A stretch of DNA of 57,305 nucleotides from positions 1 to 57,305 of IMG/VR virus record IMGVR_UViG_3300021963_000150; one strand, 5' to 3'. The position numbers and the translations under genes are program-made. A model generated the notes under the pieces. The model saw nothing but the letters and a program-made list of their open reading frames with translations, did not search any database and was not told where the DNA came from. This document shows positions 32,391 to 47,818 of this stretch, piece after piece. The first letter of the stretch is position 1. Every line of letters starts with the position of its first letter. Source of the stretch: a virus.

Positions 32391-32424
32391 ACCTCTACTG
32401 TCTCCTATTCACCCGTAAGGATTT
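32391..32424 (-). promoter_or_regulatory. Leaderless-type element promoter for 31815-32390
   Basis: AAATCCTTAC, 10 bp, GAGACAG, 7 bp, ATG; spacer identical to 40286. Confidence 0.82.
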
Positions 32425-34344: not shown

Positions 34345-34646
34345 ACCCCCTCTGTCTCAGGATTGCCCGTAAGGATTTGCCGTTTCCCTTTCTTGGTTGG
34401 CTTCCTATGGCGAGATGAGACAGGCTCAACAGCCCCGTTGGTGAACTCACGGATGATTTTCCGCAGGTTATGGAGGTCATTTCTTGGGTCGGTCGGTGTT
34501 AGAGCAATCATCTGCGTCCGTCCTCCCAGACGAATCATCACATGGTTCTTTCCTGTGATTTTCAGCAAGCCACCCATCTCCGTAATCTGTCGGAGAAGTG
34601 GGCGAACTTCCTTGTCGCAGGCTCTAATGATGCTGTGGTGGTTCAT
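34341..34646 (-). CDS. HicA-like small protein, 101 aa
   Basis: KEVRPLLRQITEMGG, TGKNHVMIRLGG and a PTDPRNDLHNLRKII segment fit the double-stranded-RNA-binding-like fold of HicA toxins, with the His in the expected strand. No HicB partner is adjacent, so it may be a solitary homologue. AAGGGGAA precedes the ATG. Confidence 0.6.
   Translation of the reverse strand: MNHHSIIRACDKEVRPLLRQITEMGGLLKITGKNHVMIRLGGRTQMIALTPTDPRNDLHNLRKIIREFTNGAVEPVSSRHRKPTKKGKRQILTGNPETEGV
34345..34378 (-). promoter_or_regulatory. Leaderless-type element promoter for the 33363-34344 operon
   Basis: AAATCCTTAC, 10 bp, GAGACAG, 7 bp, ATG. Confidence 0.82.
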
Positions 34647-34667
34647 TTCCCCTTCTTGTGTTGGCTC

Positions 34668-34736
34668 CTAATGGGAGAATTTACTAATGAGAATCGCCAT
34701 AACAATCATCAGCAGGAGGAGGATAAAGAGGTTCAT
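34668..34736 (-). CDS. Tiny membrane protein, 22 aa
   Basis: AGGAG lies 8 bases before ATG. Nearly all hydrophobic (single span) with a polar tail. It lies just 13 bases from an ACGGTGGCGGAAAG element. Confidence 0.55.
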   Translation of the reverse strand: MNLFILLLLMIVMAILISKFSH

Positions 34737-34748
34737 GTGGTAACTCCT

Positions 34749-34762
34749 ACGGTGGCGGAAAG
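34749..34762 (+). repeat. Dispersed ACGGTGGCGGAAAG element
   Basis: Exact copy between 34736 and 34792; GTA six bases upstream; CGGGACT 16 bases downstream. Confidence 0.85.
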
Positions 34763-34791
34763 CAGGCGACTCGAGGTGCGGGACTTTCGTG

Positions 34792-35145
34792 TCACAGGAT
34801 GATTTCCTGAACAATGATGGGTGTTTGTTCACCGACCCACGCACCGACGCAGTTGTAGTCAATGTATTCGGTCGCTTCGTCGTAGTCCATGCCGTCACGG
34901 GTCATTAGCACCTCAACCATCTTGTCGTATGAGTAGACGGCGAGAACAGGCTCGTTGATGCGACGAGAGAAGCCAAGAAAGGCATCCTCAAAGCCGTCCA
35001 TGAGGAGAGTGGACTCGTCCATGTCCTCCAAGTAGTCGCTGAGTTGCTGTCGGGTGGGCATTGGGGGTTCCTTTTCTAGTAGGTCGTGGTACGGGCTGGC
35101 ATCTATGTAACGGAAATGCGAGTGGAGAAGGTCATTGGTCGTCAT
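34792..35145 (-). CDS. Conserved-type phage protein, 117 aa
   Basis: LLMDGFEDAFLGF, MVEVLMTRDGMDYDEATEYID and VGAWVGEQTPII define a small family widespread in phages. ATG 35145 is chosen for its SD-like GAGGTGG; ATG 35061 (AAGGA 7 bases upstream) is an equally good start nearer the family norm. Confidence 0.82.
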   Translation of the reverse strand: MTTNDLLHSHFRYIDASPYHDLLEKEPPMPTRQQLSDYLEDMDESTLLMDGFEDAFLGFSRRINEPVLAVYSYDKMVEVLMTRDGMDYDEATEYIDYNCVGAWVGEQTPIIVQEIIL

Positions 35146-35218
35146 CGTGCCACCTCTTGATGGCTAGCCCACCGCCGATGGTGATGAACAGAAACAGGGT
35201 AAGAACAAATCCAACCAC
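35132..35218 (-). CDS. Tiny membrane protein, 28 aa
   Basis: GTG 35218 follows AGGAGG. Single hydrophobic span and charged C-terminus. Overlaps the next gene by 14 bases. Confidence 0.55.
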   Translation of the reverse strand: MVGFVLTLFLFITIGGGLAIKRWHDDDQ

Positions 35219-35241
35219 GGCTAAACCTCCTGAGTTGCGAG

Positions 35242-35346
35242 TCAGCGTCGTGGGCAACAGCCCCGTGGTCGCTGAACAACACGGCGTACAAATTCCGGCT
35301 TATTCTCAGCAGGCTTTTCTTCGGGTTGTGGCTCGGGTTCACTCAT
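35242..35346 (-). CDS. Small Pro/Glu-rich protein, 34 aa
   Basis: ATG 35346 is 6 bases after TAATCT, a leaderless-type -10. Pro-Glu-Lys-rich N-terminus, Arg/Cys-rich tail. Confidence 0.55.
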   Translation of the reverse strand: MSEPEPQPEEKPAENKPEFVRRVVQRPRGCCPRR

Positions 35347-35355
35347 TCTCCTAGA

Positions 35356-35775
35356 TTACACCGAACCGTAGTAAAGGGCATTCAGGGACTCAATTTCTTC
35401 CCTATCATCAGACGAACACGATTGGGGCATGAAGTGATAGTAGACACTCATGGAAGGGCGGTTGCTGGCATCTTCCCAAAATTCCTCGTATTCGCTGTCG
35501 CTGAATTTCTCGGTGTCCCTATCCAGTTGTATCCATTCACCCACATCGCCAAGATAGTAAAGTTCGGTGGTTGAGAGATTGACAAAGTTGGACACACAAT
35601 CAAGTTGCGATTCGTAGTCAATGTTCGGGTCGGAGTCGCAATAGTCCCGTAGGCGAGCCATGAGCGTGTAGACATCGTGTGCTCCGTCAGGTCGGTGCTG
35701 GCGACCGTTTTCTACGACCCAGCGAACCTTTGCCATCGCTCCAATGAGAAATCTGTATTCCTTGCTGTATTTCAT
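35356..35775 (-). CDS. Hypothetical protein, 139 aa
   Basis: Mostly helical, acidic, Tyr-rich. AGGGAAAG precedes the ATG. Follows 35784-35996 in the same direction by 8 bases. Confidence 0.75.
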   Translation of the reverse strand: MKYSKEYRFLIGAMAKVRWVVENGRQHRPDGAHDVYTLMARLRDYCDSDPNIDYESQLDCVSNFVNLSTTELYYLGDVGEWIQLDRDTEKFSDSEYEEFWEDASNRPSMSVYYHFMPQSCSSDDREEIESLNALYYGSV

Positions 35776-35783
35776 AACTTTCC

Positions 35784-35996
35784 CTAGAACAGGGTCGGTG
35801 ATTCTTCAGGCTTGCTCGTCAGACAATGCTCGTGAGCAAACACTGGTTCCTCATCAACAATTTGATAAACGGTTTTCTTGCCGATACGAACCCACGCCCG
35901 TACACGACGCAGGGCGTACTGGGACTTGTCGTCCACTTCCAACTGGCAGACAGCACAGGTAATGAGGGGTGGGAGTCCCATCGCACCACGGTTCAC
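35784..35996 (-). CDS. Small zinc-finger-like protein, 70 aa
   Basis: GTG 35996 overlaps the previous stop. CAVC near residue 14 and HEHC near 56 suggest a zinc site. Confidence 0.73.
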   Translation of the reverse strand: MNRGAMGLPPLITCAVCQLEVDDKSQYALRRVRAWVRIGKKTVYQIVDEEPVFAHEHCLTSKPEESPTLF

Positions 35997-36328
35997 GGGG
36001 CTACCTCGGCTTCACGGATTTCTCGTAGCCCATCGTTGATGGTGTCCCACACGCCGTCCCACATGGCTTCGGATAGTCCCTTACGCCATGCCCAAGTGTC
36101 TTGGAACTTCTCCCACATCTCGTCGGTGAAGGGGGGTGCGTCCTTGTCGTCTGCGAGGTAGTCCTCACGCCAAGCGTCTGCCACATCGCCACGGGTTACG
36201 ACCGTTACAACAATGCCGTACTGCTTCTCCATTGAGTAGAGGTGTGTGATGAGTTCGGTCATCTGCTCGGGCGTGTACCTCAGGGGGTTCGGCTCGGGGT
36301 CAGGCTCGTCAATCGGTTCACGGAACAT
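35993..36328 (-). CDS. Hypothetical protein, 111 aa
   Basis: Trp/Asp-rich helical C-terminal half (WEKFQDTWAWRKG). TGATG overlap with the gene before. Confidence 0.75.
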   Translation of the reverse strand: MFREPIDEPDPEPNPLRYTPEQMTELITHLYSMEKQYGIVVTVVTRGDVADAWREDYLADDKDAPPFTDEMWEKFQDTWAWRKGLSEAMWDGVWDTINDGLREIREAEVAP

Positions 36329-36687
36329 CAGACCGTGACTTCCTCACGGAGGCGGTCGGTCACCCGTGTACCCAGCGAGGGGTCGTGAGCCTTGACCTTG
36401 ACGACCTTGCCAAGGGGCTTCACATACGAGTTCAGCCACTTACCCAACGAAAGGACGGGCTGGGTGAACAGTGAGCCAAAGATGTTGGCAAGGGTGAACT
36501 GGGTGGAGAAGTAGGCGTACTCCGACCCGTCTTTGAGGACGAACAGGATAAGCCATTCGTCCTTGTCGTCGTTGGGCTTGGAAAGGGCGACAGCCTCCAC
36601 GAACGCCGACTCTTGGGCGTAGATGAAGTAAGCCTCCCCGTCTTGCTCAACGGCGATTGCTGGAAGTGTCTCGGTTGTGGTTGTCAT
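36328..36687 (-). CDS. Hypothetical protein, 119 aa
   Basis: Beta-rich middle (DEWLILFVLKDGSEYAYFS), basic C-terminus. Heads a five-gene overlap chain 36687 to 35356. ATG fixed by promoter. Confidence 0.8.
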   Translation of the reverse strand: MTTTTETLPAIAVEQDGEAYFIYAQESAFVEAVALSKPNDDKDEWLILFVLKDGSEYAYFSTQFTLANIFGSLFTQPVLSLGKWLNSYVKPLGKVVKVKAHDPSLGTRVTDRLREEVTV

Positions 36688-36721
36688 GTTTCCTCTGTCT
36701 CCCTTTGTCCTGTAAGGATTT
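36688..36721 (-). promoter_or_regulatory. Leaderless-type element promoter for the 35356-36687 operon
   Basis: AAATCCTTAC, 10 bp, GAGACAG, 7 bp, ATG. Confidence 0.82.
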
Positions 36722-36726
36722 ACCCG

Positions 36727-37002
36727 TCAGACCGCTTGGAGAACGCTGTCGCCGTTCTCGTCGGTGATGACGGTAGTCCCGAGTCCGTTGAGCGAGACAA
36801 GTGAGTCCACGCACAGGTCGCCAATCGTGACCTCGGGAACCTCATCGGTCGCACCCGTGTCGTACCACAGGCTCTCCACCGTTGCGTTGATGGGGAAGTC
36901 CGTCAGGGTGTTTATCATGTCCTCGGCGGTGAAATCGTCGGGAACATCAACATCAACCGTGATGGTCAGTTCGTAGGTCTGCGTCAGATAGACACGCTTC
37001 AT
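36727..37002 (-). CDS. Hypothetical protein, 91 aa
   Basis: All-beta looking, Thr/Val/Asp-rich. ATG 37002 overlaps the previous stop (ATGA). Confidence 0.75.
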   Translation of the reverse strand: MKRVYLTQTYELTITVDVDVPDDFTAEDMINTLTDFPINATVESLWYDTGATDEVPEVTIGDLCVDSLVSLNGLGTTVITDENGDSVLQAV

Positions 37003-37403
37003 CGTGACCACCACGCTTCCAGAGCGTCACGCAATCCACCCTCGCTGTTTTCCTGCTCGGTCACATCGTCAGGCTCGTTGGCTTTCGTCAGCAGGGAAGT
37101 GAACGAGTCCATTCCCTTACAGGCGACAACACGCACACGAATACGCTCGGGGTGCTTGCTCGGCGGTACTCCGTCATCGCAGGTCGGGGAAGCCCAGCCC
37201 GTCGCAACGAGGGCAACGGCGGTCAGTCCGTTAGGACGAGGCGTACCCCAAATCAGTTCGTAGGGGTCGCTGTCCTCACCCAAGAGGTACACCCCATCAG
37301 GGTCGCACCCGTACAGGCGAGTCTCAAACTCAAAGGGGTCGCTTGCGTCACGGGCAACGAGGTCGTTCACCTTGTGGGCAACTTGCGAAAGTGTCGGGGT
37401 CAT
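36999..37403 (-). CDS. Hypothetical protein, 134 aa
   Basis: Alpha/beta; core DGVYLLGEDSDPYELIWGTPRP, LTAVALVATGWA and RIRVRVVACKGMDSF resembles small actinophage proteins. ATGA overlap before and after. Confidence 0.78.
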   Translation of the reverse strand: MTPTLSQVAHKVNDLVARDASDPFEFETRLYGCDPDGVYLLGEDSDPYELIWGTPRPNGLTAVALVATGWASPTCDDGVPPSKHPERIRVRVVACKGMDSFTSLLTKANEPDDVTEQENSEGGLRDALEAWWSR

Positions 37404-37693
37404 TGTGCCAATCCAATCTTGTTGAGAGCGTCGTGAATGTTGTGGAAGTAGTCGCCCCCACCCACACTCCACCCGTGGGGCAGAGCAGAGATGGTGCGAG
37501 TGGCGTAGTCGTGGAAGTTCTTGCCCCCACGCACGGTGACGGCGTACCACAAGTGGTAGTTGTAGCCCCCGTCCTCGCAGAGTCGGTGGTCATCCAACTT
37601 GCGGAAGGCGATGACGGTTTCCCCGTTGGGGAGAGCCATGCCAACCGTCAGTTGGGCGGTGGCACAGTCGTAGGTGGTTTCGGTGATGGTCAT
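37400..37693 (-). CDS. Hypothetical protein, 97 aa
   Basis: Beta-rich with YNYHLWYAVTVRG. ATG fixed by promoter; first gene of the 37693 to 36727 operon. Confidence 0.8.
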   Translation of the reverse strand: MTITETTYDCATAQLTVGMALPNGETVIAFRKLDDHRLCEDGGYNYHLWYAVTVRGGKNFHDYATRTISALPHGWSVGGGDYFHNIHDALNKIGLAQ

Positions 37694-37893
37694 ACCCCCT
37701 CTGTCCCCTCGTCTGCCGTATGGATTTGCTCGTACTCGCAACGCATCCCGTTACACGACCCGTATGACTTACAGTACGACTCGTAGTTCAGGCACTCGGA
37801 GTCACGGTTATCGTGGACAACGATGGTCTCAGAGTCCCGTTTACCGCTCCGCTTGCCCAACTTGTAGGCGATGACGGTCGTGAACAGACCCAT
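37690..37893 (-). CDS. Small Cys-containing protein, 67 aa
   Basis: Basic N-terminus; SECLNYESYCKSYGSCNGMRC may bind metal. TAATG overlap before; its 3' end contains the next promoter and ends in ATGA overlap with it. Confidence 0.72.
   Translation of the reverse strand: MGLFTTVIAYKLGKRSGKRDSETIVVHDNRDSECLNYESYCKSYGSCNGMRCEYEQIHTADEGTEGV
37694..37727 (-). promoter_or_regulatory. Leaderless-type element promoter for the 36727-37693 operon
   Basis: AAATCCATAC, 10 bp, GGGACAG, 7 bp, ATG. Confidence 0.82.
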
Positions 37894-38306
37894 TACTCCA
37901 ACTCCTTTGCTAGTTCAGCGAGGATTGCGTCCTCACGCTCTCGTTGTCCCATCCGCTCGGAGATGAAACTAAATAGGTCATCCTGTAAGGCAATCATCTC
38001 TGCCTTGCCCTCGTCGGATAGTGCCTCATACTCGCGGTTTGCTTCTTCCTCCCAGTTGGGATTCAGATGTTCGTCGGCTCGCAACCAGCATTCGTGAACC
38101 TCGTCCTCGGAGTAGCGACCGCCAAAGAACTTCTCGGCTTCCTTCTCAAAGTACGAGGGGAGCCACTCTTTCGTCACAAGCCAATGGCTCGTTCGGGCAT
38201 TGGTGAAACTCTGCCACGCTTGGAACAGCAGTACGGAGTTCTCCAATACCGTGATGTCGGTGTCGGGCGTGATGCCGTGCGATGCCATAATGCCGTTGAT
38301 GGTCAC
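37893..38306 (-). CDS. Hypothetical protein, 137 aa
   Basis: GTG 38306 overlaps the previous stop. Helical, Glu-rich; resembles long helical phage proteins without known role. Confidence 0.76.
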   Translation of the reverse strand: MTINGIMASHGITPDTDITVLENSVLLFQAWQSFTNARTSHWLVTKEWLPSYFEKEAEKFFGGRYSEDEVHECWLRADEHLNPNWEEEANREYEALSDEGKAEMIALQDDLFSFISERMGQREREDAILAELAKELE

Positions 38307-38494
38307 TTCGCCTCCTCAAAGCGATGAAGTTGTCCGCAGGGAGGGCAGAGATACAGCCCGTCCCAGTCGGAGTCCAGCGTCGGCTCCATCTCGTTCCCCT
38401 CGCTATCGCAGGGGAAGAAGCCGTCAGAGCGAGTGTCGTTTCCGCACTCGCACACAATGTCTGTTCCGTCAGGATGAATGGTGATGATGCTCAT
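38303..38494 (-). CDS. Zinc-ribbon protein, 63 aa
   Basis: CECGN, FFPCDSEG and LCPPCGQLH give a likely zinc ribbon. ATG fixed by promoter. Confidence 0.82.
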   Translation of the reverse strand: MSIITIHPDGTDIVCECGNDTRSDGFFPCDSEGNEMEPTLDSDWDGLYLCPPCGQLHRFEEAK

Positions 38495-38528
38495 ACCGCT
38501 TCTGTCTCGGGGTGTCGTGTAAGGATTT
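38495..38528 (-). promoter_or_regulatory. Leaderless-type element promoter for the 37690-38494 operon
   Basis: AAATCCTTAC, 10 bp, GAGACAG, 7 bp, ATG. Confidence 0.82.
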
Positions 38529-38531
38529 GGG

Positions 38532-38906
38532 CTAGGGATTCCACTTGTACGCCTGTTTCGGACAGATGTAATACGCTGATGCCTCGGCAGATGCCAGCCA
38601 CAAGTCCATCTCGGCTTGGTCGCTCGCCATCTCCGTAATCCACGCAACCACATTGGTCTTGCCCATGCCCCGTTCCATGAAGTCACACCACGTTTCTGAA
38701 TGCTCCAAGAGCGTGTTGTGGGTAATCATTGCTGGGACAGACACCCGTTCGTGAATGAACACAAAGTATTTCCCAAAGTCTGCTTGTTCGTCACTTGGGC
38801 TTGGTACACCCGTCGTCGGTAACGGCGACAAGGTGTCGGGGCTTGCGGTCTCGCTAACGCACCCAATGAGGGTGATGCTGGCTATGAAGGCAATCAACGC
38901 TTTCAT
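38532..38906 (-). CDS. Exported lipoprotein, DUF732-like
   Basis: AAAGGAG precedes ATG 38906. Lipoprotein signal (basic start, hydrophobic core, LIGC lipobox near residue 13-16), Ser/Pro/Thr linker, then a helical domain with a Trp-Cys and a late YYICP, a Cys pairing as in DUF732-type actinobacterial secreted proteins. Likely membrane-anchored outside the cell. Uncommon among its cytosolic neighbours. Confidence 0.75.
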   Translation of the reverse strand: MKALIAFIASITLIGCVSETASPDTLSPLPTTGVPSPSDEQADFGKYFVFIHERVSVPAMITHNTLLEHSETWCDFMERGMGKTNVVAWITEMASDQAEMDLWLASAEASAYYICPKQAYKWNP

Positions 38907-38921
38907 GCGTTCTCCTTTCTC

Positions 38922-38984
38922 GGTTCTCTCCCACAAAATGACTCACTCATCATTTTCGGTTCTCTCAACGACACTGGCTTACAA
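38922..38984 (+). repeat. Four-unit copy of the 18-bp-period repeat
   Basis: GGTTCTCTC (38922), GACTCACTC (38940), GGTTCTCTC (38958) and GGCTT (38976) keep the exact 18-bp step of the large array at 14.5-15.0 kb. It lies directly upstream of the lipoprotein gene. Confidence 0.85.
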
Positions 38985-39866
38985 CTTGGGCTTTGCGTCC
39001 TCAACCGCTTTGGCGTGTGCCTCGGGGATGTGCGGAATCGGAATGTAATGGGCGTGTCCACCGTGTTCCAGTACCCACGGCTTCGGGGGCAACTTGCCGT
39101 TGTGGGCAAAGTAAGCCACCTCAAACCAATGCGACAGGAAAATCTTGGTGGCATAGCGACGGGCTTGTAGTTCTATCCGTCCCGCTGGCAACATTCCCCG
39201 TTCCAGCGTCGCTCGCAAGTCCTTGTCTCGGATGTTCTTGGAGTTCAGGGTTTCTTTGGCGAGGTCGGCGTAGTCCCCAGCCTCGTTCTTGGCGAGGCGA
39301 CGAGCCTTGTCTTGGGCGTACAACTTGCCGTAGAAGCAGTCATCTCGCTTGTGGAACTTCATAAACGAGTCGCCAATCTTGTAGCACAGAAGTTTGAGTT
39401 CGGCATTCCACGGTCGCTTCTCGCCCTTGTCCCACTTGGTATTCGGGTCTAGACCGGCGTATCGCCAAATTTGTCCGACCGTTTCCACCCGTGAGATGTC
39501 AATGTGGGCGAGTAGCCCCGCACTGATGACATGACCAATGCCGTACTGCTCCATTGCCCAACGCCCAGCGGTGTGTGCTTCGGCAAACTTCTTTAGAGCA
39601 GGCTTGACAGATTCCTCCAACACAGCCATCTGAACATGGAAGTGGTCAATGATGGTGTTGTCATCGGCGGTGAGCGAGGCTTTCTGATTGCCCATACCGA
39701 CTCGCATCTTCTGTAGGCGGTAGTAGAAGTCCACCAACGCCCTTGCTCCTGACGCATCCAGCGTCCCTGCCTTTACGAGGAGGTCTTTCTCTAGTCGCTT
39801 GGCGACCTCGGGGGCGAGAAAGTCCTCTGTCTCCATGAGGAGACTGTCGTAGTAGGAGTCGGTCAC
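38979..39866 (-). CDS. IS110 Transposase_20-like helix-hairpin-helix protein
   Basis: GTG 39866 overlaps the previous stop. The 295-residue protein has YGIGHVISAGLLAHIDI and QIWRYAGLDPNTKWDKGEKRPWN, closely following the C-terminal domain of IS110/IS116 transposases (GIGPVTAAxLLAxI...YAGLxP). No N-terminal DEDD RuvC-type domain and no flanking repeats are apparent, so it is probably a phage DNA-binding protein derived from, or sharing a fold with, that domain. Confidence 0.75.
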   Translation of the reverse strand: MTDSYYDSLLMETEDFLAPEVAKRLEKDLLVKAGTLDASGARALVDFYYRLQKMRVGMGNQKASLTADDNTIIDHFHVQMAVLEESVKPALKKFAEAHTAGRWAMEQYGIGHVISAGLLAHIDISRVETVGQIWRYAGLDPNTKWDKGEKRPWNAELKLLCYKIGDSFMKFHKRDDCFYGKLYAQDKARRLAKNEAGDYADLAKETLNSKNIRDKDLRATLERGMLPAGRIELQARRYATKIFLSHWFEVAYFAHNGKLPPKPWVLEHGGHAHYIPIPHIPEAHAKAVEDAKPKL

Positions 39867-40285
39867 TTCACCAACTCCTCAATCGTCTTAGCGACTCCCT
39901 TACGGCAGTCCACTCGCACGACCGGCTTGATGGTGACGACTTCCTGCTCCACGGTGGAGGGGATGAGTCCGTCCTTGACAGCCTTGTCAAAGGCATCCTT
40001 GTCCACGGTCATCTTGACGACCTGACGCAGGACGCTCGCAGGGATGAGTGCCTCCAACTTCTCCAAGTCAAAGTCACGGTTCGTGACGGCGACGCACTCA
40101 ACTTTGTGGTCGTCCACGAACACGACTTCCACGCCGTCAAAGGCGAAAGCGTCAATGACGGTCTGGCGAGCAGAGTCGTATGCCTTGCCAGCGTCGGTCT
40201 TTGCCTGCTTCGCACGGATGAAGGTGCGTCCAGCCTGCTCAGAGGGGGTTTCGGTGGTGGGGGTGGGGGTGATGATGGTTTCCAT
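39863..40285 (-). CDS. Hypothetical protein, 140 aa
   Basis: Pro/Thr-rich start, helical segment (RAKQAKTDAGKAYDSARQ), then a beta segment and helical C-terminus. Paired with 38979-39866 in one operon; ATG fixed by promoter. Confidence 0.8.
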   Translation of the reverse strand: METIITPTPTTETPSEQAGRTFIRAKQAKTDAGKAYDSARQTVIDAFAFDGVEVVFVDDHKVECVAVTNRDFDLEKLEALIPASVLRQVVKMTVDKDAFDKAVKDGLIPSTVEQEVVTIKPVVRVDCRKGVAKTIEELVK

Positions 40286-40319
40286 GTCTCTACTGTCTCC
40301 TATTCACCCGTAAGGATTT
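40286..40319 (-). promoter_or_regulatory. Leaderless-type element promoter for 38979-40285
   Basis: AAATCCTTAC, 10 bp, GAGACAG, 7 bp, ATG. Confidence 0.82.
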
Positions 40320-40426
40320 GCGTCCTCGGCGTGATGTTGTCCTTTCTATGTAACGAACGGTTGTGTGCGGAATGTGATTCTGTTGCGGAATAGTCCCGTG
40401 AGCAGGGATTATTCAGGCTAGGTATT

Positions 40427-40440
40427 ACGGTGGTGGAAAG
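40427..40440 (+). repeat. Dispersed ACGGTGGTGGAAAG element
   Basis: One-base variant, two bases past the stop of 40443-40652; GCTA six bases upstream; AGTCCCG 36 upstream. Confidence 0.82.
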
Positions 40441-40442
40441 CC

Positions 40443-40652
40443 TCAGTCAAGGACGACCCAGCGGTCGCCAAACTCGGCATTTAGCCCTAAAGAGGAACCG
40501 CTGTCCCACTTCACGGACACAGTTCCCGTGTCGTCCACAAAGTCAATGACTCCCTCGTCGCCCTGACGCAGTTTCGTGTAGGGGTCGTTGGTGTACTGGA
40601 GTTGGACTCGCTTGCCAATCAAGGCTCGGAGATGTGCGTATTGGGTGTTCAC
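40443..40652 (-). CDS. DUF4314-type protein, 69 aa
   Basis: LIGKRVQLQYTNDPYTKL, GDEGVIDFVDDTG and VKWDSGSSLGL match DUF4314, a small SH3-like family common on phages and plasmids. GTG overlaps the previous stop. Confidence 0.88.
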   Translation of the reverse strand: MNTQYAHLRALIGKRVQLQYTNDPYTKLRQGDEGVIDFVDDTGTVSVKWDSGSSLGLNAEFGDRWVVLD

Positions 40653-40924
40653 TCGTCCTCCTCGTAGTCGGTGATTTCGTTGCCGTTCTCGTCTTGGAAG
40701 ATGAGGTCACGCAAGTGCGTTACTTCCGCAAAGTCGTCGTAGCAGTAGTTCTCAATCCTGTCCATCACATCGGCAAGGGTGATGGGTTCATCGGATGCCA
40801 GCGGGCGAGCCCCGTTGCGGTCGTAGATGACCTCGGACTCTCGGTCGGCTTTGATTTGTTCCACGATGGTCGCCACATCATACGAAATGACTCGCATCGC
40901 ATTGACTCGTTCAGGCAGGCTCAT
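40649..40924 (-). CDS. Hypothetical protein, 91 aa
   Basis: ATG 40924 overlaps the previous stop (ATGA). Helical N-terminal half, acidic end (DYEEDE). Confidence 0.75.
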   Translation of the reverse strand: MSLPERVNAMRVISYDVATIVEQIKADRESEVIYDRNGARPLASDEPITLADVMDRIENYCYDDFAEVTHLRDLIFQDENGNEITDYEEDE

Positions 40925-41043
40925 CGGCTGTTGCTTCTCCATTCGCAATAAGCGTTGTAGGTTTCGTCGTCGTCGGGGTCAAGTCCGTTCGCTTCGCACC
41001 ACTCGTCGTAGGTCGGGTCGGACTCAAAGACTCGGATAGTCAT
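40921..41043 (-). CDS. Small acidic protein, 40 aa
   Basis: Asp/Trp/Cys-rich (DEWCEANGLDPDDD, YCEWR). Locked by ATGA overlaps on both sides. Confidence 0.68.
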   Translation of the reverse strand: MTIRVFESDPTYDEWCEANGLDPDDDETYNAYCEWRSNSR

Positions 41044-41237
41044 ACCTTCTCCTTGTAGATGCTCGGCAAGAAGTACCAAGAGTTGTCCGTGATGAACAGT
41101 TGTGCGTCAGCAAGCGTCGCAAACCGATTGGTCGTGGAGGACGGTTGGAGTTCTACGCACCAACCAAGACCGTCTGCTTCCTTCATGTCTGCGTCGTAGT
41201 AGATGACGATGTGGCGAACATTGAGTTCCTCGCTCAT
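41040..41237 (-). CDS. Hypothetical protein, 65 aa
   Basis: Alpha/beta with a RHIVIYYDADM strand. ATGA overlap before and after. Confidence 0.74.
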   Translation of the reverse strand: MSEELNVRHIVIYYDADMKEADGLGWCVELQPSSTTNRFATLADAQLFITDNSWYFLPSIYKEKV

Positions 41238-41455
41238 TCTCCCTCTACCTCCTCAATACACGCCGACGAAATAGCCGTGTAAATGTCGGTGTCGTCGTAG
41301 TGCTTGTAGAAGTTGTCGGCAACAGCGAACCACGCATCGTCAGTGATTTCCAGTCCACCGCCAGTGAACATCGCCTTGTGGTAGATGAGGGCGATGATTT
41401 CCTCGTCGGGGTTCAGTTCGGCGGTCAGCCGTGTGATGAGTTCGTGAACTTTCAT
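41234..41455 (-). CDS. Hypothetical protein, 73 aa
   Basis: Helical N-terminus, acidic C-terminus. ATG fixed by promoter; heads the five-gene chain 41455 to 40443. Confidence 0.78.
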   Translation of the reverse strand: MKVHELITRLTAELNPDEEIIALIYHKAMFTGGGLEITDDAWFAVADNFYKHYDDTDIYTAISSACIEEVEGE

Positions 41456-41838
41456 AGTTCCTCTGTCGCCACAGTGTCGGTAAGGATTTTGACCCCGTGA
41501 GCCTCCATCCACCCCTCGGGCGTGAACTCTCCGCACCCGTAGTGAATCTTGGGCATGGCTCCGAATCCATCCCATACGACATAGGGAATCTCATGCTCGT
41601 TATCGCACGGTGAGCCAACGGAGATGCCGTAGCCCGTAGAGCCACCCGTCAAGCCCGTGAGGGTGTCAAAGATGATTCGTGTCGCATAGGAGGGGTCGTC
41701 CAAGCGTCGCTCCTCAGCACACTTACGCAGTCCCTCTGCGAGGACATGGCACACTTCGCTACCGCCCCAGTGCGTGTAGAGGTAGATACTCACTTCCTCA
41801 TGCGGTTGGCGAATGCCAATGTTTCCACGGTCACCCAT
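41452..41838 (-). CDS. Conserved MGDRGNI-type protein, 128 aa
   Basis: MGDRGNI, VSIYLYTHWGGSE and a GYGIS segment mark a small family found in actinobacterial phages and genomes; function unknown. AAGGAG precedes ATG 41838. Confidence 0.85.
   Translation of the reverse strand: MGDRGNIGIRQPHEEVSIYLYTHWGGSEVCHVLAEGLRKCAEERRLDDPSYATRIIFDTLTGLTGGSTGYGISVGSPCDNEHEIPYVVWDGFGAMPKIHYGCGEFTPEGWMEAHGVKILTDTVATEEL
41456..41489 (-). promoter_or_regulatory. Leaderless-type element promoter for the 40443-41455 operon
   Basis: AAATCCTTAC, 10 bp, GCGACAG, 7 bp, ATG. Confidence 0.8.
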
Positions 41839-42268
41839 TGTCTTGCTCCTTGTGTTGCTCGTGTCCCCATTTGAGTCCATCGGTCAGAGAGACTCGGTAG
41901 GTTGCCCACAGGTCGTCGTCGTTCAGAATCCATGCTCCGACTTCATTGAGTTCGTCGTCGGTGGCGATGTAGGCACACCAACGGACGGCTTCTGCTTCCT
42001 CGCTGGTGTCCTCGGGTTCGTAGTAGCCCATACCACCCAGCAGTTCCCGTGCCTCCTCACGCAGGGCGAGAGGCGAGAATGCCATGATGTTCGGGGACAG
42101 CAGTTCGCTGACGGGCAACCCGTTGTCCTCGGCTCGCTCCACGATTTCGTGGTCGTCCAAGTGGGTTCCCGTGCCAGCGTCCTCCAAGTCCTCGTCAGGG
42201 AGGGTAACGATAAGGCACTCATCGGCAGGGATAATCGTGCCAGTTCCAGCGTGAACAATCAGTTTCAT
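41831..42268 (-). CDS. Acidic hypothetical protein, 145 aa
   Basis: Acidic throughout; VRWCAYIATDDELNEVGAWI. Overlaps the next gene by 8. ATG fixed by promoter. Confidence 0.78.
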   Translation of the reverse strand: MKLIVHAGTGTIIPADECLIVTLPDEDLEDAGTGTHLDDHEIVERAEDNGLPVSELLSPNIMAFSPLALREEARELLGGMGYYEPEDTSEEAEAVRWCAYIATDDELNEVGAWILNDDDLWATYRVSLTDGLKWGHEQHKEQDNG

Positions 42269-42654
42269 GGTTTCACTGTCCCCGTGTCCGTCGTAAGGAT
42301 TTCGTCGTAGGTAAGTCGGAAGATGGATACAACATTTATCGGCTCAAACGCATCCGTAGGGTCGTCGCCCCACGACATACCGCCCGTGATGAGCCAATCA
42401 GTCCCGTCAATGGTGCGTACATCGGTTTCACGGGAGCCACGCTCGTAGTACCCGTAGACCTCGGCAACCTTGCCCGTGAGCCACTCAATCGCTTCGGCGT
42501 ATTCATCTTCGTCAGATTCGTTGCCGAACTCCATCGCACAGTAGTTGTACATAGTGTGAAGCACATCTTCTTGCGTGAGCGACTTCAGTTTGGCAATCGC
42601 TTCGTCCTGCGTCTTACGCATCGGAATCATGGCGACGATTAGGTCAGCACCCAT
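42265..42654 (-). CDS. Hypothetical protein, 129 aa
   Basis: N-terminal MGADLIVAMIPM, WLITGGMSWGDDPTD late: this start and Trp-Gly-Asp-Asp-Pro segment recur in small conserved bacterial/phage proteins. AAGGAG precedes the ATG; stop overlaps the next ATG. Confidence 0.8.
   Translation of the reverse strand: MGADLIVAMIPMRKTQDEAIAKLKSLTQEDVLHTMYNYCAMEFGNESDEDEYAEAIEWLTGKVAEVYGYYERGSRETDVRTIDGTDWLITGGMSWGDDPTDAFEPINVVSIFRLTYDEILTTDTGTVKP
42269..42302 (-). promoter_or_regulatory. Leaderless-type element promoter for 41452-42268
   Basis: AAATCCTTAC, 10 bp, GGGACAG, 7 bp, ATG; lies within the 3' codons of 42265-42654. Confidence 0.82.
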
Positions 42655-42782
42655 CAGAAATCTCCTTCGGGAGGGTCGCAGTCAAAGCACCGACGCTCCT
42701 GCGTCACGCCCGAAAGCGTGAACACATCAAACAGGGTGCTGGTGTCGTCGTGGGTATCGCACCCACACAGGTCGCAGGTCAC
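42654..42782 (-). CDS. Zinc-ribbon micro-protein, 42 aa
   Basis: CDLCGC and CFDC motifs. GTG overlaps the previous stop, TGATG overlaps the next start. Confidence 0.75.
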   Translation of the reverse strand: MTCDLCGCDTHDDTSTLFDVFTLSGVTQERRCFDCDPPEGDF

Positions 42783-43090
42783 TCGTCCTCCAAGTCAAGA
42801 GCGAGTGGCTCAATCTGCTGAAAGTGGAACAACAGCCTGTCCCAGTCGTACTCCGACCAATCGGGATGGTCACCCGTGGAGTCGGCAAAGTTGAGCAAGG
42901 CGAGCGTGTCGTCCTCGTTCCACCCCAAGTGGAGAACCGTGTTCACCATGTTGGGGGACTTGCCACGAAACTTCTCGGGCAGAGGATTGGTGCTGTTGTT
43001 GTAGTTGTACTCACAAGAGATTCGCATTCTCTCGTTCCAAGCAGGATTCCGCTCGGACAACATCTCGGAGAACTTCGTGTTACGGGTCAT
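42779..43090 (-). CDS. Hypothetical protein, 103 aa
   Basis: Asn-rich N-terminal half, acidic Trp-rich C-terminus. ATG fixed by promoter. Confidence 0.78.
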   Translation of the reverse strand: MTRNTKFSEMLSERNPAWNERMRISCEYNYNNSTNPLPEKFRGKSPNMVNTVLHLGWNEDDTLALLNFADSTGDHPDWSEYDWDRLLFHFQQIEPLALDLEDE

Positions 43091-43404
43091 GCCTGTCCTG
43101 TCCCAATGTCGTCCGTAAGGATTTCGGTCAGAATGTCCTCATTGTCGGCGAGGCTCCAATACTGGTCAAGCAAGCGACAACGCTCGCACTCCTCGGCAAT
43201 GCCGTTGTTCTCAAACTCGGGAGCCTCAAAGATGAGGTACAGCATTCGCTCCGCAGGGGTCTTACGCTCCATGATGGGAGCCATCTTGGTTTCCCATTCG
43301 GCGTATTCGGGCGTTGATGAGCATTGGCACTCCTGCTTGCCAACAAAGGACTTCATTGCGTCAGCAATAACTCGCCAGTTGGGGTTGCTTGATGAATCGG
43401 TCAT
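43087..43404 (-). CDS. Hypothetical protein, 105 aa, Cys pairs
   Basis: CQC and CERC separated by about 45 residues may form a zinc site. ATG fixed by promoter; stop overlaps the next gene. Confidence 0.78.
   Translation of the reverse strand: MTDSSSNPNWRVIADAMKSFVGKQECQCSSTPEYAEWETKMAPIMERKTPAERMLYLIFEAPEFENNGIAEECERCRLLDQYWSLADNEDILTEILTDDIGTGQA
43091..43124 (-). promoter_or_regulatory. Leaderless-type element promoter for the 42265-43090 chain
   Basis: AAATCCTTAC, 10 bp, GGGACAG, 7 bp, ATG. Confidence 0.82.
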
Positions 43405-43438
43405 GTCTCCACTGTCTCCGTGTCTGTCGTAAGGATTT
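43405..43438 (-). promoter_or_regulatory. Leaderless-type element promoter for 43087-43404
   Basis: AAATCCTTAC, 10 bp, GAGACAG, 7 bp, ATG. Confidence 0.82.
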
Positions 43439-43547
43439 GCGTGTCTCGGCATACCCAATCAACGAACAATGACCGCCAAAGTGTGCGTCGCCGAGTCTGG
43501 AGCCCCGTTTGGTATGATTTACCCCTACAGGACGCAAGGAGAATGCG

Positions 43548-43772
43548 ATGAGGAAACTAACCCCCGAGGAGCGAGCCGCCAAGAAGGCTCTCGCCCATGT
43601 ACACGACGAGAACTGCGGTCATTCGGTCGCTGAAGCACCCGTAGCCGAGGAAACCCCTGCTCAAGAAGCCTCTGCCCCAGCCGAGGAAGCCCCAGCCGAG
43701 GAATCAGCCGAGGAAGCCAAGCCCAAGAAGAAGAAGAAGGCGGAAGAAGCCACGGTGGCGGAAGAAGCCTGA
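43548..43772 (+). CDS. Ala/Glu-rich low-complexity protein, 74 aa
   Basis: AAGGAG precedes ATG 43548 and TATGAT near 43512 may be a -10. Short N-terminal part with HVHDENCGH, then repeated Ala-Glu-Pro units and a KKKKK block. The 3' end carries an ACGGTGGCGGAAGA element (43752-43765) in the frame Thr-Val-Ala-Glu. Plus-strand gene among minus-strand genes. Confidence 0.7.
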   Translation: MRKLTPEERAAKKALAHVHDENCGHSVAEAPVAEETPAQEASAPAEEAPAEESAEEAKPKKKKKAEEATVAEEA

Positions 43773-43780
43773 TTAGAGGC

Positions 43781-44476
43781 TCATTCCACCCCAACGGGTA
43801 GGAAACCACCCGAACGCAGGAGGCGGTACACCGTGTCCTCGCAAAATTCCTTCATCTCCTGATTTATGTCCATGAGTTCTTCGTGTGCCTCCCACTTCAC
43901 ATCGTCATCGTCGGAGTTCCAGCGTTCCTCAATGTCCTTGCGTCGCTCGGCAAAGACTTCGGGCATCTCTCCGTCAGACATTCCGTGAGAGGCAATCTCC
44001 TTGCCTGCCTGAAACGCCTCGCAACCCCAAAATCCCATTCCTTCTTCGTCAAAGGAGTTGGTGATAAGGAGTGTCGGGAAGATTTCGCTGATTTTCCGCA
44101 ACAGACCCGTGGGGGGCGACCAAGCGGTGTCGTAGGACAGGGAAAGGACATCCCCGTCAATCTCCACCTCGGATTCCTCCAAGTCGGGTGACCACTTCGT
44201 TCCCCAGTTGGCGATGTTCCAGTCGTACCAGTCTTGGTGTCCGTACTTCGCCTTGTTCGCTTCGTACTTTTTCAGCAACTCCTGATGCTCAGGGTCGTCG
44301 CTGTCGGTACGGAAGAACACGGACGGAATTTGGAGTTCCGTTGGGGTCGGGAACAAGAGCGTCAGGTCGTGACGAACCTTGCCGTCCTCGTTGGTCGTTG
44401 TGATGGCTTCCACGAGTTTCGTCAGAGTCTCGTTGTCGCCGTGGAAAGTTGTTGAGTTGTAGCACCAGTTAGGCAT
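43781..44476 (-). CDS. DUF1281/Api92-like protein, 231 aa
   Basis: N-terminal MPNWCYN and an early ITTTNEDG... LFPTP segment match the Api92-like ferredoxin-fold family found on phages and integrative elements. Function unknown. ATG fixed by promoter. Confidence 0.88.
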   Translation of the reverse strand: MPNWCYNSTTFHGDNETLTKLVEAITTTNEDGKVRHDLTLLFPTPTELQIPSVFFRTDSDDPEHQELLKKYEANKAKYGHQDWYDWNIANWGTKWSPDLEESEVEIDGDVLSLSYDTAWSPPTGLLRKISEIFPTLLITNSFDEEGMGFWGCEAFQAGKEIASHGMSDGEMPEVFAERRKDIEERWNSDDDDVKWEAHEELMDINQEMKEFCEDTVYRLLRSGGFLPVGVE

Positions 44477-44510
44477 ACTTCTACTGTCCCCCAGTATCCG
44501 ATAAGGATTT
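44477..44510 (-). promoter_or_regulatory. Leaderless-type element promoter for 43781-44476
   Basis: AAATCCTTAT, 10 bp, GGGACAG, 7 bp, ATG. Confidence 0.82.
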
Positions 44511-44521
44511 GCGAATCACAC

Positions 44522-44553
44522 GCTGGGGTGGGAGCGAACCCCCACCCCACAGA
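44522..44553 (-). terminator. GC-rich hairpin after 44563-44919
   Basis: CTGGGGTGGG pairs with CCCACCCCAG-type arm; no long T-run. Confidence 0.5.
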
Positions 44554-44562
44554 GCGTATGAA

Positions 44563-44919
44563 TCAGACCTTCGCCTTGGGCTTCTTGGCGGTGGTCGCCT
44601 TCTTGGGGGCAGTCGCCTTCTTGGCTCGCTTCGTGGCTCGCTGTGCCTTCTCGGCAACACGGCTCTTGATGCCAGCCTCGGTCAGCACCATGAAGTAGAC
44701 GGTGAAAGTCTCGCCGTCCTTGTTCTGACGAACCGACACACGGAGGTCATTCCGCTTGGAGGCGATGGAGTAGTAGTACGAGATGTACTTCGCCTCACGG
44801 GTGTAGACCGCCCACTTGTCGGGGGTTTCGGACAGACGGGCGATGAAGGACTGAACAGCCCCGCCGTTGCGTCCACGAGTCGCAGGTGTCGGATTCTCAA
44901 ACACAATACGCTTATTCAC
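44563..44919 (-). CDS. Basic protein with histone-H1-like Lys/Ala tail, 118 aa
   Basis: GTG 44919 after AAGAGG, overlapping the previous stop. N-terminal alpha/beta domain (about 80 residues), then an extended Lys-Ala-Pro-Thr tail typical of DNA-compacting proteins. Confidence 0.76.
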   Translation of the reverse strand: MNKRIVFENPTPATRGRNGGAVQSFIARLSETPDKWAVYTREAKYISYYYSIASKRNDLRVSVRQNKDGETFTVYFMVLTEAGIKSRVAEKAQRATKRAKKATAPKKATTAKKPKAKV

Positions 44920-45335
44920 TTGATTCCTCTTTCTTTCTTGGTGAGTAAAATGTCCAATTTGGACTTGACTTCCGAGAACTTTCGTTCTGCGTCGTTCTCC
45001 AGATGAAGTGCCTTTCGTTTGGCTACCTCATCCCTGAAAGACGGTGCGTCTACTACTTGCTCTCGGGACTTCCTCGCTTGTGACAGCGATGGCTGGATTC
45101 GGTCGGTGAACTTCACCCGTGAGGATGACACCCACTTCTTCCCCTCTCCGAACTTCGGCGTGATGCTGAAGTCCAGTCGCCCGTAAGCCAAACGGGCTGA
45201 GACTATGGTGACGGCGACATCTAGCCCATCTAGGCAGATAATCCCATCTTTGTTCTTGTATGCGTCCACATCCAAAGAGCCGTCCGATGTGCGGATGACC
45301 TCTGTTGCGTGTGTTGCGTCTTGTTCGTTATTCAT
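44916..45335 (-). CDS. Hypothetical protein, 139 aa
   Basis: Start chosen at ATG 45335. Beta segment (VAVTIVSARLAYGRLDFSI), then a Lys-rich helical C-terminus. Co-transcribed with 44563-44919. No promoter element visible; the 45336-45396 gap holds nothing recognised. Confidence 0.7.
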   Translation of the reverse strand: MNNEQDATHATEVIRTSDGSLDVDAYKNKDGIICLDGLDVAVTIVSARLAYGRLDFSITPKFGEGKKWVSSSRVKFTDRIQPSLSQARKSREQVVDAPSFRDEVAKRKALHLENDAERKFSEVKSKLDILLTKKERGIK

Positions 45336-45396
45336 GTGTATCCAATGCGTGATGTAAGCGGAAATTACTTCATCCGACAACCTAGTGTGACGAGAG

Positions 45397-45618
45397 TCAC
45401 AGACTAGGGTCGGCTGTGGGGCATGAGTCAAACCACTCCTGCCATGTACGTCCTGTGGTTCGCACGAGTTCCCCATCGGTGTAGAAGTCCATCAGTAGCC
45501 CCTCGTTTGTGAGGTGGACGATACAGACATTCTGCTTGAGGTCGTACTTGTCGTCAATGACCGTAACAACGATGTCCAATGGTTCGCTGATACCGCAGTC
45601 AAAGTCAATCGGCTTCAC
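45397..45618 (-). CDS. Hypothetical protein, 73 aa
   Basis: GTG 45618 with GGAG 6 bases upstream, overlapping the previous gene by 14. Beta-rich (LDIVVTVIDDKYDL). Confidence 0.72.
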   Translation of the reverse strand: MKPIDFDCGISEPLDIVVTVIDDKYDLKQNVCIVHLTNEGLLMDFYTDGELVRTTGRTWQEWFDSCPTADPSL

Positions 45619-45832
45619 TCATGGCTCCTGTCGTGATGATGTCGGTGAGTCGTTGCGTCATCTCCCTGATGTCCTCTAAGAGCGTCGTCGCAAACAGCGT
45701 GATGTCCTCGTCAGGGCTTCCGTCCGTCCATTCGTTTATGGCATCTACGAATAGGTTGTGGAAGGCTCGGTATGTATTCCATCCCCAAGCGTCGGGGTCG
45801 GGGAGCAGTGCGTAGAGTTCCGTGCGGTTCAT
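45605..45832 (-). CDS. Hypothetical protein, 75 aa
   Basis: Helical; TELYALLPDPDAWGWNTYRAF. ATGA overlap with the sigma region 4 gene. Confidence 0.74.
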   Translation of the reverse strand: MNRTELYALLPDPDAWGWNTYRAFHNLFVDAINEWTDGSPDEDITLFATTLLEDIREMTQRLTDIITTGAMSEAD

Positions 45833-46086
45833 GCGTCCTCCGTCTGTGCGTCAAACGCCCCCCGTTGGACGAGGCTCTGAATGGCTCGTGCCTCGGTGCG
45901 ACGGACGCTTTCACGGGTTTCCCCGTTGCCAAGAATCTCGGCGACCTCACTGAGGGTTCGTGCGATGAATCCGTTGTCCACTCCGTATCGGAGCGTGAGA
46001 ACCTGTCGCTCGTGCGTGTCCAGCATCTCCAAAATCTGAATGCGACGCTCCCGTGGGTACGAGGCGAGGTTGATGTTGTAACTCAC
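45829..46086 (-). CDS. Sigma-70 region-4-only protein
   Basis: 85 residues. LDTHERQVLTLRYGVDNGF..RTLSEVAEILGNGETRESVRRTEARAIQSL follows region 4 of primary sigma factors (LDxREREVLxLRFGL...TLEEIGxxLGxTRERVRQIExxAL) almost position by position, but regions 1-3 are absent. It could contact the -35 box or dock on RNA polymerase. It is the sixth gene of an operon itself driven by the AAATCC element at 47013, a possible positive loop. Confidence 0.85.
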   Translation of the reverse strand: MSYNINLASYPRERRIQILEMLDTHERQVLTLRYGVDNGFIARTLSEVAEILGNGETRESVRRTEARAIQSLVQRGAFDAQTEDA

Positions 46087-46280
46087 TTATCCTCCTCAAA
46101 GGTGTCAAAGCCTTCTAGGGCTTCCAACATCTCTTGATGGTTCGTGGTCATTTGGGCAATACGCAAGAGCAACGCCTTGATGACGAGCATTGGCTCGTTC
46201 CTGAGGCAATCGTCGGCATCCTCATACTCGGAGCCAGCCACAGCGACACCCAGCGAGTAAGCGTGGTTGTAGGTGGTCAT
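46083..46280 (-). CDS. Hypothetical protein, 65 aa
   Basis: Helical; overlaps both neighbours (TGATG before, ATGA after). Confidence 0.74.
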   Translation of the reverse strand: MTTYNHAYSLGVAVAGSEYEDADDCLRNEPMLVIKALLLRIAQMTTNHQEMLEALEGFDTFEEDK

Positions 46281-46504
46281 CAGTCCCCCTCAAAGTATTC
46301 AGGGTAATGACCCTCAATGACGAACTCGGGGTTCGCCGATTCCGCAACTCGGTAGTAGAGCGACCCATCAGGCTCACGAATGAACTCAATCGCAAAGATT
46401 TCATCGTCAGCAACACAGATGGACATTAGGTACGGGCTGTCCTTGCGACAGTCGTCCTTGTGAACGATGACAATCGCATCATTCCCTCGGTGTATTTCGG
46501 TCAT
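46280..46504 (-). CDS. Hypothetical protein, 74 aa
   Basis: Beta-rich with DAIVIVHKDDC and LMSICVADDEIFAIEFI. TGATG/ATGA overlaps on both sides. Confidence 0.74.
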   Translation of the reverse strand: MTEIHRGNDAIVIVHKDDCRKDSPYLMSICVADDEIFAIEFIREPDGSLYYRVAESANPEFVIEGHYPEYFEGD

Positions 46505-46710
46505 CAGAGGCTCACCATCATGTCGTCGGGCTTGTGTCCAATCGCACGGAGAACGAGGCTTCCCAAAGGGACGCTATGTCCACCGAACTCCCTGTCCAGC
46601 ACATCGGCGTGATACAGGGCAACGCCCGTGGGCATAATCGCTTCGGAGAAAGCCACAGCGTCCTCCAGTGTCTCAAAGTTCATCGTCAGGGTGTACTTCT
46701 TCGGTTTCAT
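46504..46710 (-). CDS. Hypothetical protein, 68 aa
   Basis: GAGGAG precedes ATG 46710, which overlaps the previous stop. Small alpha/beta protein. Confidence 0.75.
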   Translation of the reverse strand: MKPKKYTLTMNFETLEDAVAFSEAIMPTGVALYHADVLDREFGGHSVPLGSLVLRAIGHKPDDMMVSL

Positions 46711-47012
46711 ACTGTCTCCTCAATGTTCTCGCCGTAGTTGGCGATTCCGTGCTTGCTTTCGTCGTAACACTCGGTGTGGTAGTTGCCGTAGTGGTAGTTG
46801 CCGTCCTCGTCCTCAAACTCCACTCGGGTTTCGTGGTCAAGGTAAATCTGCTTCTCGCACTCGTCGCACTCAAAGCCCGAACACTCGGCACAGCCCCAGC
46901 CGTCATCCACGGGGATGCGGTTGATGAACTTGCCGATGAGTGAGCCGTCCGCACGGGTCGCACCGAACTCGGTGGACTCTCCGCAATAGACGCAGTTGTA
47001 GTTCGTAGTCAT
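46707..47012 (-). CDS. Zinc-finger protein, 101 aa
   Basis: CVYCG, GCAECSGFECDEC and a later HTEC give two possible zinc sites. Heads the eight-gene operon 47012 to 45397 containing the region-4 gene. ATG fixed by promoter. Confidence 0.8.
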   Translation of the reverse strand: MTTNYNCVYCGESTEFGATRADGSLIGKFINRIPVDDGWGCAECSGFECDECEKQIYLDHETRVEFEDEDGNYHYGNYHTECYDESKHGIANYGENIEETV

Positions 47013-47419
47013 AAGGCTTCTGTCGCCAATCGTGCCGTAAGGATTTCGGCATCACGGACACACCACCCGTGGGCGTACCCGTCGGCATAGCGTGTCGGGC
47101 GAGAACCGTCGCCCTTGCCACGCATCGGCTCACCGCACTCACCACACGACTCGTCGTAGTGCCACTCGGCAGGCTCCTGAATGAAGCCGATGGTGACGAA
47201 CTCGCCATACGCCGTACGACCGTCAATGGTCATCGGGTAGGCGGTCACACGGGTTGGCTGGTCGTATTGCCCGCTCCCAAGTTCGTAGGAGTCCCAGATG
47301 TTCACATCCCAGTCGTCGTTGTACGCACCCCACCAGTCGCCCCCGTATTCGGATTTGGGCATGGTGTCCAGTTGTTGTTGCGCCCAAGCGAGAATCGCCT
47401 GCTTCATCTGTTCGTTCAT
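47009..47419 (-). CDS. Hypothetical protein, 136 aa
   Basis: Trp/Tyr/Asp-rich; CGECGEP near residue 92 and a later Cys may bind zinc. ATG fixed by promoter. Confidence 0.78.
   Translation of the reverse strand: MNEQMKQAILAWAQQQLDTMPKSEYGGDWWGAYNDDWDVNIWDSYELGSGQYDQPTRVTAYPMTIDGRTAYGEFVTIGFIQEPAEWHYDESCGECGEPMRGKGDGSRPTRYADGYAHGWCVRDAEILTARLATEAL
47013..47046 (-). promoter_or_regulatory. Leaderless-type element promoter for the eight-gene operon 45397-47012
   Basis: AAATCCTTAC, 10 bp, GCGACAG, 7 bp, ATG; within the 3' codons of 47009-47419. Confidence 0.8.
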
Positions 47420-47784
47420 GCTCCCTCTGTCTCCTTGTAGGTCGTAAGGATTTGCTGACGGATGCGACGCACCAGTTCTGATGCCTGCGAGCCACGACCG
47501 TTGTAGTCGTTGTTGGAGTCAATGCCCAACGCACCGCAGAGCCAGTAGAGGAACGACAGGTTGTAGACACCCTCCATCTTGTCCACGGGGTTGCCGTTGG
47601 CATCAAAGATGGTGGACTTCGGGTTGGAATAGTCGGATTCCAGCGTCTGAATGAGTCGTGCCTTGCGGAGTTCATCCTCGGTGAAGTGGGGGGCGTAGAA
47701 CTCGGGAAGGAAGATGGTATGCCCGTCGCCGATGACTTTGCCGTCAGCGAGGGCGTTGCTTGTGCGTTGTAGTAAGTCGGTCAT
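47416..47784 (-). CDS. Hypothetical protein, 122 aa
   Basis: Alpha/beta, ends in helical Lys/Arg-rich segment. ATG fixed by promoter. Right-most gene of the minus-strand region. Confidence 0.78.
   Translation of the reverse strand: MTDLLQRTSNALADGKVIGDGHTIFLPEFYAPHFTEDELRKARLIQTLESDYSNPKSTIFDANGNPVDKMEGVYNLSFLYWLCGALGIDSNNDYNGRGSQASELVRRIRQQILTTYKETEGA
47420..47453 (-). promoter_or_regulatory. Leaderless-type element promoter for 47009-47419
   Basis: AAATCCTTAC, 10 bp, GAGACAG, 7 bp, ATG. Confidence 0.82.
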
Positions 47785-47818
47785 ACTCCCTCTGTCCCCC
47801 GACACGGGATAAGGATTT
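47785..47818 (-). promoter_or_regulatory. Leaderless-type element promoter for 47416-47784
   Basis: AAATCCTTAT, 10 bp, GGGACAG, 7 bp, ATG. Divergent from the plus-strand copy at 47861. Confidence 0.82.

Follow-up and report, generated by a model that had tools for sequence, protein, structure and literature searches.

In the cellular SigO-RsoA system, sigma domains 4 and 2 reside on separate proteins (PMC10028694), and the domain-2 partner is known. In phage T4, AsiA and MotA take over the job of sigma region 4 and the -35 element is replaced by a box near -30 (PMC6755090), with a host-type -10 element being kept. In T4 late transcription, gp33 binds the flap and gp55 reads the -10 element, as separate phage proteins (PMC7892883); gp33 is structurally unrelated to region 4 and acts with the sliding clamp. 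Lastly, Cluster K mycobacteriophages carry 13-19 copies of the repeat SAS (GGGATAGGAGCCC) within 3-9 nt of gene starts (PMC3203893). Its extended form, ESAS, holds a putative promoter that was later linked to SigA-like promoters (PMC3203893, PMC11373665), and no linked sigma fragment is reported in that work.

Here, we analyze a viral contig of 57,305 nucleotides (IMG/VR record IMGVR_UViG_3300021963_000150), the full length of which we refer to as the window. It carries an array of putative leaderless promoters with the boxes AAATCC and GACAG, and a gene, P0002, for a primary-sigma homolog that consists of region 4 only (Table 1). As in SigO-RsoA, domain 4 is found apart from domain 2 and, in the case of P0002 by prediction, serves its own promoter, but the region 4 of P0002 is of the primary-sigma type. 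As in T4 sigma appropriation, a phage box is found at the -35 position; however, T4 keeps the host-type -10 element, which the AAATCC phages have exchanged for GACAG, and AsiA and MotA, unlike P0002, are not sigma region 4. The scheme that we propose below resembles gp33 and gp55 in that flap binding and -10 reading would be split between proteins, although no gp55-like protein was recognized in the window. With Cluster K, the AAATCC class shares the many short repeat copies just upstream of gene starts, but its consensus, AAATCCTTAC...GnGACAGaggagGtATG, is not that of SAS, and ESAS retains SigA-like hexamers. As we read the open-access literature, none of SigO-RsoA, T4 and Cluster K has a free-standing primary-sigma region 4 together with a leaderless array whose -35 and -10 elements are rewritten, which is a statement about these sources and no proof of novelty.

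Table 1. Coordinates of the main features in the window
Feature	Position	Strand	Basis or remark
Protein with several HTH motifs (three-HTH), D5-like match	108..1121	+	In AAATCC phages only, among helicase-centered loci
P0003, 70-aa ECF-type region-4-only protein	13863..14075	-	Sigma70_r4_2, 1.2e-11
Host-type extended -10 of P0003, TGC-TAGTGT, 6 nt before ATG	14082..14090	-	Sequence; conserved in G003 and L024
Strongly basic 56-aa protein (...GVHAKRGTSQLKSSKNYKKPYRGQGR), directly preceding P0003, with a host-type TACAAT promoter	14104..14274	-	Sequence
Array of 40 exact AAATCC promoters	15298..47818	-	40 of 44 elements
AAATCC promoter copies on the plus strand	starts 1407, 15894, 17178, 48404	+	Sequence
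Nine-gene operon, w112 to w104	45397..47784	-	P0002 is the 7th gene; successive genes overlap by 1-14 bases
P0002 (gene w106), 85-aa region-4-only primary-sigma homolog	45829..46086	-	GTG at 46086, stop at 45829
AAATCC promoter of w110, within w111; closest one upstream of P0002	47013..47046	-	Sequence
AAATCC promoter of w111, within w112	47420..47453	-	Sequence
AAATCC promoter of w112 (AAATCC-N16-GACAG-N7-ATG), first of the operon	47785..47818	-	Sequence

The AAATCC promoter class

The hexamer AAATCC occurs 63 times in the window, against 25 expected copies. In 46 cases it is followed at rigid spacing by the second box (AAATCC-N16-GACAG), and one further copy has GACAG 21 nt downstream. An ATG or GTG lies exactly 7 nt past GACAG in 44 of the 46, and the pattern AAATCC-N16-GACA-N8-[AG]TG is thereby found 44 times, against 0.01 in Markov sequences. 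This geometry places AAATCC at -34 to -29, GACAG at -12 to -8 and the A of ATG at +1. It is also that of sigma-A leaderless promoters: judged from the sequence, a start codon stands at the predicted +1 in 44 of the 46 copies, and the two copies without a start codon have an A there. The -10 hexamer itself departs from sigma-A TANNNT, since positions -12 to -7 read GACAGA, GACAGT or GACAGG in 44 of 44 copies, and only the A at -11 is retained in every one of them.

The starts that follow the elements differ from others in the window: a pyrimidine precedes the start in all 43 element genes, compared with 13 of 49 operon-internal genes. Shine-Dalgarno strength is -7.6 kcal/mol for element genes and -9.4 for operon-internal genes (random, -4.1), values that are not decisive on leaderless starts because the element is itself purine-rich. 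In 14 of 43 cases, the element is contained in the upstream open reading frame. We conclude that the AAATCC/GACAG class is real, with promoter activity and leaderless starts being putative. We reject a mainly translational role of the element, given that the A at +1 is kept where a start codon is missing and that the Shine-Dalgarno leaders of relatives, described below, start at the same point.

About ten elements between 15 and 30 kb of the window (e.g. at 24677, 25151 and 18582) directly abut upstream inverted repeats of the form TTATCCACAG...CTGTGG, which resemble DnaA boxes.

Related phages and the assignment of the two boxes

Related contigs were gathered via an AAA-ATPase gene and a helicase gene. 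Two of them, L043 and L079, have arrays of TTGACA-N17-TANNNT with an ATG some 6-7 nt further on; L046, L047, L050, L060 and L069 have GTTGT...TANNNT arrays with a geometry like that of the AAATCC class, and L109, L216, L222 and L228 have arrays of like geometry but other sequences. Where the ATG is absent, a short leader with a Shine-Dalgarno sequence begins at the same point (ACCTACTA...AAGGAG in L222 and L050; AGGAGGTGATGATG in the window). Because the TTGACA or GTTGT and the TANNNT of these relatives occupy the same positions, we assign AAATCC as the -35 and GACAG as the -10 element by position. The sigma-A leaderless promoters of L043, L079, L046, L047 and L060 thus share positions and leaderless geometry with the AAATCC class, whereas both of their hexamers differ from AAATCC and GACAG of the window. 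The sequences predict that the AAATCC lineage replaced both the -35 and the -10 element and kept the leaderless geometry.

More generally, each of the lineages L038, L043, L046, L047, L050, L051, L059, L060, L079, L109, L216, L222 and L228 has a start-associated promoter of its own at these positions. At one extreme is perfect TTGACA/TANNNT, at the other are boxes of a wholly different sequence, and the spacer is conserved in some. An actinobacterial host is suggested by the leaderless TANNNT promoters that the relatives carry, together with helicase matches to Arthrobacter and Gordonia phages. In GenBank phages, no near relative was found for the first 25 kb of the window.

A free-standing primary-sigma region 4

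The first-pass annotation had described P0002 as a sigma-70 homolog that is reduced to region 4 and lacks the core-binding region 2, and profile searches bear out both parts. Residues 19-72 match Pfam Sigma70_r4 (E=6.4e-9), the C-termini of RpoD/SigA are the top NCBIfam models, and a phmmer search of the PDB aligns residues 13-72 with region 4 of the RpoD structure 4g8x (E=4e-7). Sigma70_r2, by contrast, gave no match anywhere in the window, with the threshold relaxed to E<=10. Compared with a complete sigma-70 factor, P0002 hence has the region for -35 and flap binding, but not the one for core binding and -10 recognition. An AlphaFold model from the single sequence reached a pLDDT of 58, so it was left out of the fold searches.

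The gene is preceded by an AGGAGG Shine-Dalgarno sequence and overlaps each of its two neighbors by 4 bases. While GenBank phages contain no close homolog of P0002 or of P0003 (see below), the related contig G001 encodes 37 aa of one (MNYNINLASYSTERREKILNLLEPHEQTVLILRFGLD; 59-61% identical) before it is truncated by the contig end. The codon differences between the two comprise 12 synonymous and 15 non-synonymous ones. By all these signs, P0002 looks like a real, conserved gene.

Region 4.2 had been regarded as almost entire. This is true for most positions of the recognition helix (TRESVRRTEARAI in P0002, TRERIRQIEAKAL in 4g8x), which agree with primary sigma, and four basic residues remain in this helix; two residues differ, however, and the turn of the HTH is longer by 2 residues than in the RpoD chain. 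Region 4.1 appears intact, with RYGVD in P0002 and RFGLD in the G001 homolog. These features bear on two other views of the protein. An ordinary HTH regulator that resembles region 4 by chance, and that would act on operators without contacting the polymerase, is very unlikely: small HTH proteins commonly score against sigma models, and two other families in this phage group do so, but primary-sigma models align with P0002 across 4.1 as well as 4.2 (residues 13-72), and thus beyond the HTH. We also consider it decidedly unlikely that P0002 is a flap-binding decoy, which would displace sigma-A region 4 and switch off host promoters without reading AAATCC itself. The intact-looking region 4.1, the altered recognition helix and the lengthened turn would suit such a role, and region 4 or the flap is a frequent target of phage proteins (T4 AsiA, PMC6755090; gp33, PMC7892883); against it stand the basic residues of the recognition helix, a predicted expression within the regulon rather than early, and the confinement of the gene to AAATCC phages.

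The operon of P0002 and its distribution

The earlier claim that P0002 is expressed from an AAATCC-type promoter applies at the level of the operon, which lies behind three tandem elements (Table 1); P0002 has no element of its own. As a predicted product of the class that it might serve, P0002 fits the part of an amplifier and is excluded as its sole or first trigger.

The AAATCC phages fall into two subtypes, AAATCCTTAC (the window, the identical G002, and G003) and AAATCCAAAT (G048, G001, G007, L197, L199, L200 and L201). The P0002 gene occurs in both of them wherever a contig covers the locus, i.e. in the window/G002 and in G001, whereas the remaining 50 records of the search did not yield it; a few of these are AAATCC-type contigs that do not extend over the locus, and many are fragments. 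Several non-AAATCC relatives without the P0002 gene have kept its neighbors w107 and w110-w112; L246, for instance, has w111, w110 and w107 in order, with an unrelated gene at the position of P0002. Among the relatives searched, the comparison thus supports an association of the gene with AAATCC promoters, as seen in two distinct phages, one of them with the 37-aa fragment. Because all AAATCC phages form one group, this association amounts to a single evolutionary event without independent repeats.

Candidate readers of AAATCC and GACAG

Our preferred explanation, which we hold tentatively and somewhat short of an even chance, is that P0002 is a detached primary-sigma region 4 that helps the phage to redirect host RNA polymerase, standing in for sigma-A region 4 at AAATCC promoters. 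P0002 would dock on the tip of the beta flap, displace sigma-A region 4 and contact AAATCC as the -35 element, while the GACAG end would be opened by region 2 of host sigma-A or by an unrecognized region-2 partner. An early trigger would first be made from a host-type promoter, and P0002 would then act as a feed-forward amplifier, as suggested by the location of its gene inside the AAATCC regulon. Amplification of the class or replacement of sigma-A region 4, both proposed in the first-pass annotation, are plausible since P0002 is primary-sigma-like, confined to region 4 and encoded within the regulon, and its distribution agrees with them; the change to GACAG, however, is not explained by a region 4 alone. 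This mechanism is weakest on the -10 side, because only the A at -11 is kept throughout among the TANNNT positions.

A partner for the -10 side leads to a two-piece phage sigma, in which P0002 would read AAATCC and a second, unrecognized phage protein GACAG, so that both host-recognition halves would be replaced at some 45 leaderless promoters. We regard this version as unlikely. Of the two parts of a SigO-RsoA-type sigma factor, P0002 represents the free-standing domain 4; for the domain-2 partner, neither the window nor 42 related contigs, some of them 145-160 kb long, gave a Sigma70_r2 match, in a search that a diverged gp55-like protein could escape and that covers a window contig which looks incomplete. 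As relatives are still on sigma-A-like promoters, such a change of code would be traceable within one phage family. If the preferred explanation is right, we have a natural example of a viral promoter code that was altered at the -35 as well as the -10 element, with the leaderless geometry being kept and a free-standing region 4 carried along. Relatives with shared gene content but different codes would then allow one to ask, as a natural series, how promoter specificity is rebuilt and which sigma piece or partner has to change. The leaderless promoters would also make up a defined set, open to testing, within a large group of uncultured viruses.

The same searches for region 2 speak for another reader of the -10 element, which could be an alternative sigma factor of the host that recognizes AAATCC/GACAG with nothing being supplied by the phage. 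This is highly improbable, as the exact element is at about chance level in prokaryotes: 84,980 GTDB genomes (257 Gb) yielded 7 scattered single matches and thus no host regulon with the full pattern, though the host may not be among the sampled genomes, and its sites may match the element only in part.

The strongest rival reader is the multi-HTH protein at the left end of the window, and it is conceivable, if on the whole rather unlikely, that this protein or a factor from a missing part of the genome reads AAATCC, with P0002 having a separate role downstream. The protein is encoded outside the AAATCC array and is present in 6 of 6 AAATCC contigs that cover its locus, but in none of the non-AAATCC helicase-centered loci; these loci are local, so other phages may carry it elsewhere. 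It has a D5-like match and several HTH motifs, but nothing in it beyond weak HTH matches resembles a polymerase-binding domain, and as the reader it would leave the retention of a sigma region 4 in the lineage unexplained. A missing factor is possible insofar as the largest open reading frame of the apparently incomplete contig has <=660 aa, compared with open frames of >2000 aa in relatives.

The second region-4 gene and its neighborhood

P0003 is, as first described, an ECF-like protein with region 4 only, and its putative host-type leaderless promoter is likewise seen in the sequence and is conserved in G003, where the copy of the protein is 66% identical. Its proposed role as the early trigger is weakened. 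The gene is absent between the flanking genes in three AAATCC-type contigs (G048, L200 and L201; this locus only), for which reason we reject it as a general AAATCC reader; AAATCC promoters as a class would not need it, unless those genomes encode it elsewhere. Furthermore, its recognition helix is acidic, with a net charge of -3 (0 in the G003 copy) compared with +3 in the aligned stretches of SigJ and SigC. This is suggestive of a decoy that binds a partner or the polymerase, rather than of a protein that reads promoters; by this prediction, P0003 may bind polymerase without reading DNA. The small basic protein encoded next to it has homologs in L024, L198, L200 and L201, and its conservation extends to both AAATCC subtypes. 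On the minus strand at 14500-15050, the motifs GAGAGAACC and GAGCGAGCC alternate about every 24 bases, and similar arrays are found in L198.

Other features of the window

Two further proteins score against region 4. The one at 53654-54025 was rejected as a sigma fragment, being a protein with a helicase-associated domain and an HTH that is widespread in relatives. The other, at 12866-13501, looks like a terminase small subunit from its N-terminal HTH and helical pattern; its PHROG label is RNase E, and the region-4-scoring proteins of relatives are of similar length (201-236 aa). An 89-base tRNA-Lys, possibly spurious, was called by ARAGORN on the plus strand at 39250-39338, inside a transposase-like open reading frame on the minus strand (38979-39866). 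Lastly, in the stretch from 50800 to 51850, low-complexity GAGTAGGTGAGTGA repeats give way to clustered TGTGGATAA/TTATCCACA boxes and the GC skew changes strongly, so that this stretch is likely to be a replication origin.
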